From: a virus | Reading direction: 5' to 3' (one strand) | IMG/VR virus record: IMGVR_UViG_3300032242_003236 | Span: 1 to 33,377 of that record | Length of the DNA: 33,377 bases | Shown: positions 3,640 through 7,688 of the stretch, one piece after another | Numbering within the stretch: the stretch's first letter is position 1 | How the letters are laid out: every line of letters begins with the position of its first letter | Notes under the pieces: model-generated | The model's database searches: none | Seen by the model: the letters and a program-made list of their open reading frames with translations, nothing else | What the model was told of the DNA's origin: nothing | Position numbers and translations under genes: made by a program

Positions 3640-3975
3640 TCAGAAGCTCGGGTTGAGCCGAACCGTGGCGACAGTGTCGGCGTTCGCCCCGGCGATCGCC
3701 GCCACGCCGATGCGCGTGTTCGCGTTGGCGGAGATCGTCACGTTGGCATTGGTCGCGTCCCAGTAGAGGTTCGCGCCCTGGGCATAGCTGGTGCTCGCCC
3801 CGTTCAGCTTGCGCAGCGCGAAGACGCCGCCGCAGCGAATGGCGACGTTTGCCGCCGAGGCCGCGGAAGTTATGGCGACGCCGACGATCTGGCCGACGGC
3901 GACCACATCGCCGCTATTGACGTTCGCGGGCGCGACCACGGTCATGCGCTCGCCGTCCTGCAGGTAATTGCGCAT
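3640..3975 (-). CDS. DUF2190-family capsid decoration/cement-like protein
   Basis: This 111-residue protein begins MRNYLQDGERMTVVAPANV and continues SGDVVAVGQIVGVA, the signature layout of DUF2190 proteins. Those are small beta-rich phage proteins encoded next to the major capsid gene and thought to decorate or cement the shell. A strong ribosome binding site (AAGGAAG) precedes ATG 3975. It lies directly downstream of the protease/capsid fusion, separated by a palindromic hairpin, and another hairpin follows it. The protein has no cysteine pairs or membrane segment apart from a single Cys. Family assignment is from sequence pattern; the cement role is family knowledge. Confidence 0.75.
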   Translation of the reverse strand: MRNYLQDGERMTVVAPANVNSGDVVAVGQIVGVAITSAASAANVAIRCGGVFALRKLNGASTSYAQGANLYWDATNANVTISANANTRIGVAAIAGANADTVATVRLNPSF

Positions 3976-4036: not shown

Positions 4037-6148
4037 TCAGTTGGAGGACCGGGCGATGGTGCGGAACGTGACCGCCTTCGCGCCGAAGCTGTGGCGGCAG
4101 GAGAAAACGACGCCGTCGACCTCGGGATCGAGGTAGCTGGACAGGTCGGGGCCATTCATCCCCTGCTCGTAGCCGTACTCCACCGCCTCGTAGCCGGTGC
4201 CGCTCTCGACCGTGACGAACCAGTCGTTGTTGTCGGTCAGGAACTGGCTGGCGACGACCTGCGCCTGGCCCCGGAAGGGGTTTACCTGGGTGGTTGCCCA
4301 GCCATTCGGCACCACCAGGGTGCTGAACAGCGCCAGCGCCGCCGCCTCGAGCTCGGTCGGCACGATCAGGATGCGCGGCTGGGTGACCATCTGCTGGCCC
4401 GTCGCGTCGCGCATGCGCAGGATCAGGGTGCGCACCGCCTGGTAGTTGTCGACCGACAGCGCGCCCGAGGTGCTGTTGTTCTGGGTGTAGACGGTCCCGT
4501 CGACCGTCACCGTGCGCGTGGTGCCGAACAGCGGGTTGCCGTCGGCCATGTTCGCGTTGGCGCCGAGGATGCCATAGACCGTGCTGGCCTCGTAGTTCAG
4601 CGCGCTCTGCGCGAAGGCCTGCGGCAGGCGATCGAAGCCGCCGAGGTCATCGTTGACGATGGCGACGTAGGTCAGCGCCGTGTTGCGGGCCAGCCGCACC
4701 AGCGACCACTGCTCGCCGCCCTCGCCCATGACCCCGAACTCGATGTTGCCGCCCTCGGCGAGCGGCCGCAGCGTCGGCGAGGCGCCGAGCTCGATGGTGC
4801 GGGCCGTCTTGAAGTCGGGCAGGTCGCGCCGGCGGGCCCAGGCGGTGTAGTTCCGGGTCTCCATGCTGTAGGCGGTCAGCAGCCGCTTCGACTGGGCATT
4901 GGCGAGCAGGTTCGGGAAGTCCGACGTGGTGCCCATGCCGCGCGTCATGAAGCCGCCGACCGGCAGGCCGAGCGCGCGCTTGGCGATCTCGGTCGGGGTC
5001 ATGCCGCGGGTGCGGGTGCCGTGCACCTCGAGGCTCTCGCGCGCCATGTCGAGCAGCGACATGCCGCGGCACTCCATCGCCGGGCCCTCCAACTTGTGGT
5101 GCTGCGGGTCGCAGCGGTGCATCAGCCAGCCCTCGATGCCGGCCATGCGGGTCTCGCCGCCGTCGCGGGTGACCTCGACCGTCGCGGTCAGCGGCTTCGC
5201 CGTCGAACGCGCGGCGACGTCATCGACCGCGGCGCGCAGCGCCTCGGTCTCGGTGATCCCGGCCTCGAGCTGGCGCAGCGTCCAGTCGGCGTCGAGCTTG
5301 GCGCGGGTGGCGATATCCTTCAGCTGCTGCAGCGTCGCCGCCTGCGGCGCCTCCGCGGTACGCTTGGCCGGCGCCGGGGCGCCCTGATCCTCGATGGTCT
5401 CGGGCATCCGAGCCTCCTTGCTATGCGACGCCGTGCCGCGGGTGGTGGAGAGATGCGGCGGCGCCTCGGCCGGCGCCGCCGAACGGGTTCCGGCACCGGC
5501 ATCGGCCGGCACCGCGACAAGGCTGATCTCGGCCGGGGTCCAGGCGCGCGCGGTCCAGACCGTGGGCTTGCCCTCGCTCTCGACCTTCTCCCATTCGGTG
5601 ACCCAGTAGCCGCAGGAGACGAAGCGCAGATGGCCACCGGCGACCTTTGCCTCGACCGCCTGGCCGGCCTCGCTTGACCGATCGAAGCGCACGCGGGCCA
5701 CCGCCTGCGCCTTCTCGATCCGCGCCGAGCCCGGCACCACGCTGCCGACCACGCTGGCGACCTGCGCATCGTGATCCGTCAGCAGCGGCGCGCCGCTGTT
5801 CAGGCGCGAGAGGTCGCAGCCGGCGACGTCGAGCACCTCGAAATAGGTCTGGTCGCCCCACCAATCGTAGCGGCGCACCGAAGCGCCGGTGGAGAAAACG
5901 ACATCGACCTCGCCGGCGGCAGGGTCATAGCTGGCCGGGGCAAATTCGAGGCCGATGGCGTCGATGATGCGCTTCGCCGCGGCGGGATCGCCGCCCAGCT
6001 CGGGCTCCTCGCCTTCTTCGCCCGCTTCCTCGGGGTCGTTTTCGCCCATCGCATAGTCGGGCGAATTGGCATCGCGCCTGGCGGGGGTGGCGGGGCGCGC
6101 GCGGAGGCGCGGCGGCGCCTCGCGGCGCGATTCGCTGGGCTTCGGCAT
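4037..6148 (-). CDS. Prohead protease-major capsid protein fusion
   Basis: This 703-residue protein uses ATG 6148, preceded by GGGAGA; an in-frame ATG at 6286 would overlap the portal gene and is rejected. After an Arg/Pro- and Glu-rich tail, residues 55-215 form a U35/HK97-type prohead protease, with likely catalytic His126 in LLTDHD and Ser178 in RFVSCGY. Residues 230-250 are a linker. A helical scaffold-like delta segment (about 265-310) then precedes an HK97-fold major capsid protein (about 340-703), with a conserved MCP-like C-terminus. The protease matures the shell by cleaving scaffold tails, and the capsid part forms the icosahedral head. Fused protease-capsid genes are a known arrangement. 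A strong internal ribosome binding site suggests the capsid part is also made separately. Confidence 0.85.
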   Translation of the reverse strand: MPKPSESRREAPPRLRARPATPARRDANSPDYAMGENDPEEAGEEGEEPELGGDPAAAKRIIDAIGLEFAPASYDPAAGEVDVVFSTGASVRRYDWWGDQTYFEVLDVAGCDLSRLNSGAPLLTDHDAQVASVVGSVVPGSARIEKAQAVARVRFDRSSEAGQAVEAKVAGGHLRFVSCGYWVTEWEKVESEGKPTVWTARAWTPAEISLVAVPADAGAGTRSAAPAEAPPHLSTTRGTASHSKEARMPETIEDQGAPAPAKRTAEAPQAATLQQLKDIATRAKLDADWTLRQLEAGITETEALRAAVDDVAARSTAKPLTATVEVTRDGGETRMAGIEGWLMHRCDPQHHKLEGPAMECRGMSLLDMARESLEVHGTRTRGMTPTEIAKRALGLPVGGFMTRGMGTTSDFPNLLANAQSKRLLTAYSMETRNYTAWARRRDLPDFKTARTIELGASPTLRPLAEGGNIEFGVMGEGGEQWSLVRLARNTALTYVAIVNDDLGGFDRLPQAFAQSALNYEASTVYGILGANANMADGNPLFGTTRTVTVDGTVYTQNNSTSGALSVDNYQAVRTLILRMRDATGQQMVTQPRILIVPTELEAAALALFSTLVVPNGWATTQVNPFRGQAQVVASQFLTDNNDWFVTVESGTGYEAVEYGYEQGMNGPDLSSYLDPEVDGVVFSCRHSFGAKAVTFRTIARSSN
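5405..5419 (-). promoter_or_regulatory. Internal ribosome binding site and start inside the protease-capsid gene
   Basis: The sequence AAGGAGG (5413-5419 on the minus strand) lies five bases before an in-frame ATG at 5407, codon 248 of the fusion. This is better than most gene starts in the window. Initiation here would yield a 456-residue scaffold-plus-capsid protein beginning MPETIEDQG, without the protease. Confidence 0.7.
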
Positions 6149-6170
6149 GGTATCTCCCGTGGCGAGGCGC

Positions 6171-7688
6171 TCAGGGCGCCGAGAGCTGAACCTTCGCGTT
6201 CTGCGCGGGGTCCTGCGCGGCGCCGGCATTGTTGATGTACCGGGGGTCGGTATCGAGAATGACGCCGGCGGCCTTTGCCGCCGCATTCCAGGCGGCGATT
6301 TCGGCGAGCTGCGCCTTCGGATCCCAGCCCATCTCGGCGACGGCCTGGTCCCAAGTCTTGAAGCCGGCGCGGACCTCGGCGATCAGCGCCTCGGCATCCT
6401 TTACCGGGTCGACAAATTCGAAGCGCGGCGGGCTCCACCGGACCGGCCAGGGGCCCTGGCGTTGCGGCAGCTTGCCGACCAGCTGGGCAGCCTCGGCGAA
6501 AGCCTGGTAGAGCGGATCGCAGAGCCGCGGCACCAGCATGAGCCATTGCGCCTGCTCGATCCGGCGCCTGAACGGCAGGAAGCCGGCGCGCATCGAGGAA
6601 TAGTTGGCTTCGGCCAGGTCGCCGGTCAGCATCATGTAGGGGATGCCGTAGCCCTGGGCGACGGCGCGCAGTTGGTGGCGGGCGAACTCGGAGAAGCCGT
6701 TGGCCGGCGGCGGCGAGAGGAATTTGACATCCTCGCCGGGCTTCAGCCGCTCGATGATGCCGGGCGCTAGCGTCTTCCGCTGCTGCCCGGTGCCGTCCTG
6801 CACCGGGCCTTCCAGCGGGCCGCGGCCGGCGCCGGCGTCGGAGGTCACGAAGGCCGCGAGGCAGGCTTGGATGCGCGCCTGCTCGAAGGTCGCATCCTCG
6901 TAGTCATCCAGCATGCGCAGCCGGTTCAGGACCGGCGATAGGTCAGGGACTCCGCGGAGCTGGCCGGGCCGATCCGCCCGGTAGAGGTGGAGGATCTCGG
7001 CAGCCGGAAAGCGCGTAGAGGCCACCATGGCGCGCCCGGTGACGGTGAAGTATTCGCCGGGGTGGTGGTCATAGAGCCAGTAGGCGCGGACCCGGCCCCA
7101 GAGGTCGGTTTCGACGCCGTGGCGGATCTTGCCGTCATCCAGCACCACATCCTTCAAGATATCCAGGAACTCGGGCTCGAGCAGCTGCAGGGCAAGCGGC
7201 ACTGGGGTGCGCAGCCGCGTCATCTCGGCGGTCGAGAGCTTGACCTTGCGCACCAGCGTCTCGCCGGCTTCCGACCGGGTACGCGCGGCATGCGCGATCA
7301 GCCCGTGGAAGTCGAAGGTGCCGACGATGTCGCAGGCCGCCGACCACTCGCCGAACAGCGCATCGGCCTTCTTGTCGAGATCGAGGTCGCCGGTATTGGA
7401 CCGCGGGATGATGCCGGTACCGACCTGATAGGCCACCAGCACATCCAGGCCGCCGGCGGCGTATGGGTTGTTCCTGACCAGGTCGCGCGAGCGGTTGCGC
7501 AGCCGGTCGAGCTGGCGGTCGAGCAACGTGTCGGCGGTCGCGTTGCTGGGGAACCATCCCTGCGTGCGGCGGGACACCTTGGCGCCTTCGTAGTTGCGCG
7601 TCAGCATGTCGAACTTCACCCGGGCCTCGGCCCGGCGCGCCGCCCAGCCGGGGAAGAGCGGCGCGAGCGCCCGCTCAATACCGAGCAT
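6171..7688 (-). CDS. Portal protein, lambda gpB-like
   Basis: This 505-residue protein has the expected length and start of lambda-type portals: FDMLTRNYEGAKVSRRTQGW, then RNRSRDLVRNNPYAAGGLDVLVAYQVGTG (residues about 62-92), which is characteristic of the family. It forms the dodecameric ring at one capsid vertex, through which DNA enters and leaves and to which the terminase and connector bind. A second conserved region (HLYRADRPGQLRGVPDLSPVLNRL) lies near residues 245-268. It overlaps the gpW-like gene upstream by 14 bases and precedes the protease-capsid gene, matching lambda order. Confidence 0.9.
   Translation of the reverse strand: MLGIERALAPLFPGWAARRAEARVKFDMLTRNYEGAKVSRRTQGWFPSNATADTLLDRQLDRLRNRSRDLVRNNPYAAGGLDVLVAYQVGTGIIPRSNTGDLDLDKKADALFGEWSAACDIVGTFDFHGLIAHAARTRSEAGETLVRKVKLSTAEMTRLRTPVPLALQLLEPEFLDILKDVVLDDGKIRHGVETDLWGRVRAYWLYDHHPGEYFTVTGRAMVASTRFPAAEILHLYRADRPGQLRGVPDLSPVLNRLRMLDDYEDATFEQARIQACLAAFVTSDAGAGRGPLEGPVQDGTGQQRKTLAPGIIERLKPGEDVKFLSPPPANGFSEFARHQLRAVAQGYGIPYMMLTGDLAEANYSSMRAGFLPFRRRIEQAQWLMLVPRLCDPLYQAFAEAAQLVGKLPQRQGPWPVRWSPPRFEFVDPVKDAEALIAEVRAGFKTWDQAVAEMGWDPKAQLAEIAAWNAAAKAAGVILDTDPRYINNAGAAQDPAQNAKVQLSAP

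Follow-up and report, generated by a model that had tools for sequence, protein, structure and literature searches.

The fused protease-capsid gene and its neighbours

The window, that is, the whole stretch of DNA that was analysed, is the 33,377-base IMG/VR virus record IMGVR_UViG_3300032242_003236. On its minus strand, one long gene couples a prohead protease to a major capsid protein and is directly flanked by a portal gene and a capsid cement/decoration gene (Table 1). Its reading frame is open from position 6286, and 703 codons follow without a stop from ATG 6148, which is likely the start of the full-length fusion.

Table 1. Position of the fused gene, its parts and its neighbours in the window
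Feature	Position	Strand	Evidence or remark
Capsid cement/decoration gene, directly downstream of the fusion	3640..3975	minus	PF09956, 7.1e-21
Fusion gene, 703 aa: prohead protease, linker, helical scaffold-like region, HK97-fold major capsid protein	4037..6148	minus	
Nested gene, 456 aa: scaffold-like region and capsid precursor	4037..5407	minus	
HK97-fold capsid domain, residues 409-703	4040..4924	minus	Pfam, AlphaFold2, Foldseek
Helical region, residues 269-392	4973..5344	minus	AlphaFold2
Disordered linker, residues 223-268, contains the internal start	5345..5482	minus	pLDDT <50 for 225-268
Internal in-frame start codon ATG, M248 of the fusion	5405..5407	minus	
Internal Shine-Dalgarno, AAGGAGG	5413..5419	minus	duplex -11.4
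Protease domain, residues 69-222	5483..5944	minus	alignments and AlphaFold2
Shine-Dalgarno of the full-length start ATG 6148, GGGAG	6154..6158	minus	duplex -7.4
Portal gene, directly upstream of the fusion	6171..7688	minus	PF05136, 2e-108

The identity of the protein was established by profile searches. The NCBIfam family NF045541 (scaf_prot_MCP2, prohead protease/major capsid protein fusion) matched at 510.2 bits (E value 9e-153) over positions 1-630 of 634, a near full-length match that stays under the curated cut-off of 525 bits. The protease and capsid parts lie in one open frame, as expected for a fusion of this family; judged by its profile score, the window protein is a clear relative of NF045541, just below the cut-off. 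The PHROG family phrog_4523 (major head and protease protein) was matched from residue 67 to residue 701 (profile positions 18-641 of 644, E value 1.1e-144), and a TIGR01543 stretch was seen at residues 120-221, below the cut-off of that model. In the protease domain, H126 and S178 are invariant in alignments A1 and A2. For the capsid part, Pfam gave Phage_capsid_4 (PF25209, 1.2e-38; capsid span residues 392-700) and the best Foldseek match was the JBD30 procapsid (4.7e-8), HK97 and encapsulins being matched as well, which places this domain in the HK97 fold.

In the AlphaFold2 model (24-row alignment, mean pLDDT 74.7), the N-terminus is disordered and the protease is folded up to about residue 222; disorder at residues 225-268, helices at 269-392 and the capsid domain follow in that order. 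M248 is located inside the disordered linker, between the folded protease and the helical region, and occupies a nearly invariant column of the 24-row alignment A2. The helical region is likely a removable scaffold of the delta-domain kind.

The internal start in the window and in fused homologues

A preliminary description of this DNA had pointed out an AAGGAGG five bases before an in-frame ATG at 5407, as one of the best ribosome binding sites of the window and the start of a 456-residue product. All of this is borne out by the sequence. On the minus strand, AAGGAGG (5419-5413) is followed by CTCGG and ATG (5407-5405), and 456 codons run from this ATG to the stop, in the frame that ends at 4037. 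The duplex with the anti-Shine-Dalgarno (anti-SD) sequence reaches -11.4 kcal/mol, which ranks 6th among the 491 minus-strand ATGs and is stronger than the -7.4 at the fusion's own start. AAGGAGG occurs five times in the window, both strands included. As the fused gene contains 17 in-frame ATGs, about 0.2 in-frame ATGs of this strength were expected from the window's own rate (6/491 x 17). Nevertheless, when the gene was shuffled synonymously, 4298 of 5000 shuffles were equally strong at ATG 5407, given the peptide KEAR-M and the codon use of the gene. Thus, taken alone, the internal site of the window shows no excess over chance at the codon level, whereas the comparison with its relatives does. 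The local structure at this start was not below that of synonymous shuffles either (z = -0.28).

For this comparison, 256 loci were assembled: the window's own, 16 GenBank phage records, 80 viral-contig loci, 80 prokaryote-genome loci and 79 further viral-contig loci. A direct scan of the viral contigs with the window protein as query gave no matches, and MinM1, the nearest isolate, took its place, with a slight selection bias, one of the six peptide patterns of that scan spanning the MinM1 start. Profile searches yielded 252 full ORFs, 253 with the window, of which 116 were left at 80% identity. Four of these were set aside (L014, which is split and whose capsid gene had been taken, and the ClpP-type L015-L017), leaving 112 fused homologues. 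A site was counted when an in-frame ATG with an SD energy of -5 or lower was present within 60 codons after the protease end, and the energy of each homologue was that of its best linker ATG (144 ATGs for the 112 sequences).

Absence of the site from related fused genes was the outcome that, according to the preliminary description, would speak against an internal start. The site was present in 104 of the 112 non-redundant homologues, against 70.2 ± 4.2 (maximum 81) in 200 synonymous shuffles of this 80% identity set. That shuffling still yields 70 of 112 means that the raw frequency is partly due to peptide composition. The excess was also seen with stricter cuts (66 against 48.2 ± 4.7 at -6.5 and 45 against 34.2 ± 3.7 at -8, for the same 112 homologues) and after thinning at 45% identity (20 of 21 against 14.0 ± 1.8, maximum 18, 300 shuffles). 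When ATGs at the -5 threshold were counted in 60-codon bins along the gene, 96 of the 112 sequences had one at +20 to +80, and the other bins contained 4 to 31. SD cores of at least 5 nt preceded 85 of the 144 in-frame linker ATGs against 41 of the 1287 other in-frame ATGs, and the combination of such a core with an ATG was found in 81, 7 and 0 of the 112 sequences in frames 0, +1 and +2, respectively. Methionine by itself is not special to the linker.

In the ATG-aligned logo, AGGA stands at -11 to -8 with 71-78% per base in an A-rich surrounding region. The start region of the homologues is weakly structured, with -7.8 kcal/mol against -15.3 in the rest of the gene and against -9.8 in synonymous shuffles (Wilcoxon p 2.8e-9). 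The nested product has a median length of 470 aa (interquartile range 460-477).

Eight of the 112 homologues fell below the threshold (L008, L026, L037, L048, L189, L197, L200 and L225). L037 carries a GTG with AAAGGA, and in the other seven the ATG is preceded by a weaker match; in L048 and L189 there is almost no SD (-0.9).

An SD-like run could also arise as the by-product of a conserved peptide, for instance a motif (K/Q/E)E-x-x-M at which the protease would cut itself, in which case only the full-length protein would be made and the stoichiometry would be set by cleavage. It is true that the main codon register, xAG-GAG, accounts for 77 of 107 SDs, so that KE, QE and EE peptides are common, and that the window peptide predicts an SD in 86% of shuffles. 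But over the homologues the shuffles fall far short of the observed count, 100 distinct tetrapeptides precede the internal methionine, the SD is present in all three registers (77/21/9), and GTG replaces ATG in L037. A conserved peptide is thus a very unlikely explanation. Judged from these alignments, the pattern, in which the SD is kept and peptides and registers vary, is one of selection for a ribosome binding site.

A profile of the capsid alone was used to look for split genes in the window's own clade as well. Among the 79 new loci, 71 were fused, one was read as split (L509) and seven gave no match to a window-type protease. The apparent split of L509 (20-2043) is a frameshift inside the protease part, either a sequencing error or real, with the capsid part and the internal start intact. 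Long ORFs with a ClpP-type protease were present in L533 and L564, and the capsid ORFs of L511, L520, L540 and L556 start at the locus edge. In L525 (2447-3604), for which no window-type protease was found, the ORF of a capsid relative begins near the capsid domain and lacks the helical scaffold-like region.

Relatives with separate protease and capsid genes

The sister group of the fused genes comprises 82 loci (80 viral contigs, L014 and L495). In 78 of them, protease and capsid are encoded by two adjacent genes, and the relative frames of the two are distributed over all three possibilities (16, 26 and 36 pairs). At three of the 82 loci the protease was not found. In one member of the group, Dulem virus 34 (L014, 1447-3561), the separate genes share the same frame and the protease stop TGA lies inside the SD of the capsid gene.

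The split capsid genes open with an SD and an ATG, 190-231 residues ahead of the capsid-HMM start. The median distance from start to capsid HMM is 213 residues for the split genes, calculated on 82 split loci that include L509 and three doubtful-split loci from the ClpP-type scan set, against 175.5 for the internal starts of the fused genes. As the capsid genes of the split loci begin at nearly the same position, the internal start corresponds in location to a true gene start, varying scaffold length being allowed for. A gene start at this place, in all three frames relative to the protease, is a further point against a mere by-product of the peptide.

A true start in the split relatives also bears on a possible role of the SD-like sequence as a translational pause, which would let the protease fold before capsid synthesis and would not be a start at all. 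The sequence is indeed found exactly at the domain boundary. For a pause, however, there would be no need of a start codon 5-8 nt downstream that is confined to frame 0, or of weak structure around that codon. Nor would a pause account for the gene starts of the split relatives, and we consider this explanation the least probable of those examined.

The sister group also contains a lone fused gene (L494, 1745-3985) in an otherwise split clade. Its protease is of the S78 type according to Pfam, the SD and the ATG are retained, and the gene has the appearance of a separate in-frame fusion event in which the start of the capsid gene was preserved. This locus, together with the two-gene organization of its clade, would suit the idea that the internal site is the relic of a once-separate capsid gene and is now unused. 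Unused sites would decay, though, and this one is kept down to about 30% identity while the linker peptide, the SD register and the spacing drift. The relic explanation is therefore improbable, a shade more so than that of the conserved peptide.

Proposed products, known systems and ClpP-type fusions

The explanation that we regard as highly likely, from the comparison of homologues, is that one gene gives two proteins by two starts in the same frame: a protease carrier and a separately initiated capsid precursor resembling HK97 gp5. The separate production of 456-residue precursors by internal initiation, proposed in the preliminary description on the assumption that a shell needs few proteases, gains support from the conservation in 104 of 112 homologues and from the capsid starts at about the same place in the sister clade. 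Ribosomes starting at ATG 6148 would make the protease-scaffold-capsid protein, and those starting at the stronger internal AAGGAGG and ATG 5407 would make the 456-aa scaffold-capsid precursor, the equivalent of HK97 gp5. The short form should be in excess, because in 70 of 109 homologues the best 5' SD is surpassed by the best internal one (equal in 2); very probably, many plain capsid proteins and fewer protease-tagged ones would be made. The long form would then co-assemble with the short one through their common scaffold and capsid parts, and would thereby bring a limited protease dose into the shell, where the protease would free itself and trim the scaffold regions.

By analogy with HK97, a strictly fused gene would place a protease on every subunit. 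Two starts would explain how a gene in which every capsid is linked to one protease can still build a shell, and would give the phages with fused genes a precursor of the gp5 kind. Annotation would then lack the main capsid product: each of the 14 annotated GenBank records of fused genes examined (11 window-type, 3 ClpP-type) gives the fusion as one CDS and lists no internal product. Furthermore, protease dosage would become testable by silent mutation.

In-frame starts nested in phage protease genes are known, and there the nested product is a scaffold. What sets the present case apart is a predicted nested product that is a complete capsid precursor, conserved across a broad family. In lambda, the C and Nu3 genes reportedly overlap, the Nu3 scaffold gene being nested in frame in the protease gene, as Shaw and Murialdo are said to have described in 1980. 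The lambda capsid protein gpE is encoded separately and the C protease belongs to another family. The window thus resembles C/Nu3 in having a protease gene with an in-frame nested gene, and differs from it in that lambda nests the scaffold and keeps gpE apart. As in systems of the Mu and lambda C/Nu3 kind, a conserved in-frame start codon with an SD lies in the protease gene; a scaffold without capsid is not what is encoded here, since the nested frame continues across the capsid domain as far as 4037. In herpesviruses, UL26 and UL26.5 encode a protease-scaffold protein and a nested in-frame scaffold. Unlike the nested frame of the window, UL26.5 comes from its own transcript and is a scaffold rather than a capsid protein.

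In phage Mu, the scaffold is started in frame inside the protease gene, and for PaMx73, a Mu-like phage of P. aeruginosa, a start at Val177 was proposed (PMC4378225). The window shares with Mu and PaMx73 an in-frame internal start with an SD in a prohead protease gene, which gives a partner that has the C-terminal part of the protease protein in common with it; theirs, however, nests the scaffold alone, with a separate capsid gene, whereas here the scaffold-like region and the whole capsid protein are included. In HK97, gp5 carries the scaffold (delta) domain and the protease gp4 is a separate gene, as stated in PMC8508860, and a scaffold-capsid fusion is also described in PMC10275583. The prohead protease followed by a capsid with an N-terminal scaffold domain is common to HK97 and the window, and the nested 456-aa product has the gp5 layout; the two separate genes of HK97 are joined into one here, which gives the protease a capsid part as well.

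The papers on Pseudomonas phage MD8 (PMC8508860) and on Paracoccus ClpP-type fusions (PMC6536676) describe single genes encoding, respectively, protease, scaffold and capsid, and protease and capsid. These share the single-gene layout of the window, but their protease is of the ClpP type. In the MD8 paper, none of the terms 'internal', 'start codon', 'Shine' or 'stoichiom' appears. More generally, no published internal start in protease-capsid fusions was found among the papers listed by searches of the open-licence PMC literature.

A second set of 43 non-redundant fused ORFs was collected from the MD8 and Pben1 scans, Fels-1 included; this set is mixed rather than purely ClpP-type, as 14 loci from one scan carry the window's protease type. 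In this set, a site lay 140-190 residues upstream of the capsid-HMM start in 27 of 43 ORFs, against 18.2 ± 2.4 (maximum 24) in 100 shuffles. The region 60-100 residues upstream of the capsid showed no excess in the same ORFs (11 against 9.2 ± 1.8).

In a quick tree of 64 capsid domains, which has many open forks and is relied on for just two points, the closest relatives of the window and the intermingling of protease types, the window-type and ClpP-type labels mix, with at least 10 changes over three labels. The capsid of L211 (1610-3865) groups with those of the window and MinM1 (SH-aLRT 97), and its ORF has a ClpP-type protease (PF00574, 1.8e-25) with GAGGAG and ATG retained in the linker. 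This suggests, as a lead and not as proof, that protease modules may have been exchanged at the linker. We lean with moderate confidence towards a general statement: in phages with protease-capsid fusions, both those with an S78/HK97-type protease and those with the unrelated ClpP type, the major capsid protein would as a rule be initiated at an unannotated internal site in the linker, with the full-length fusion as a minor, dosed protease carrier. The linker start would also mark the point where protease modules are swapped and the start of the capsid is preserved.

When nine ORFs without a window-type protease were checked against Pfam, eight matched CLP_protease. The ninth, a long capsid fusion (L384, 1286-3388) whose N-terminal part has no Pfam protease match, possibly represents a third protease type.
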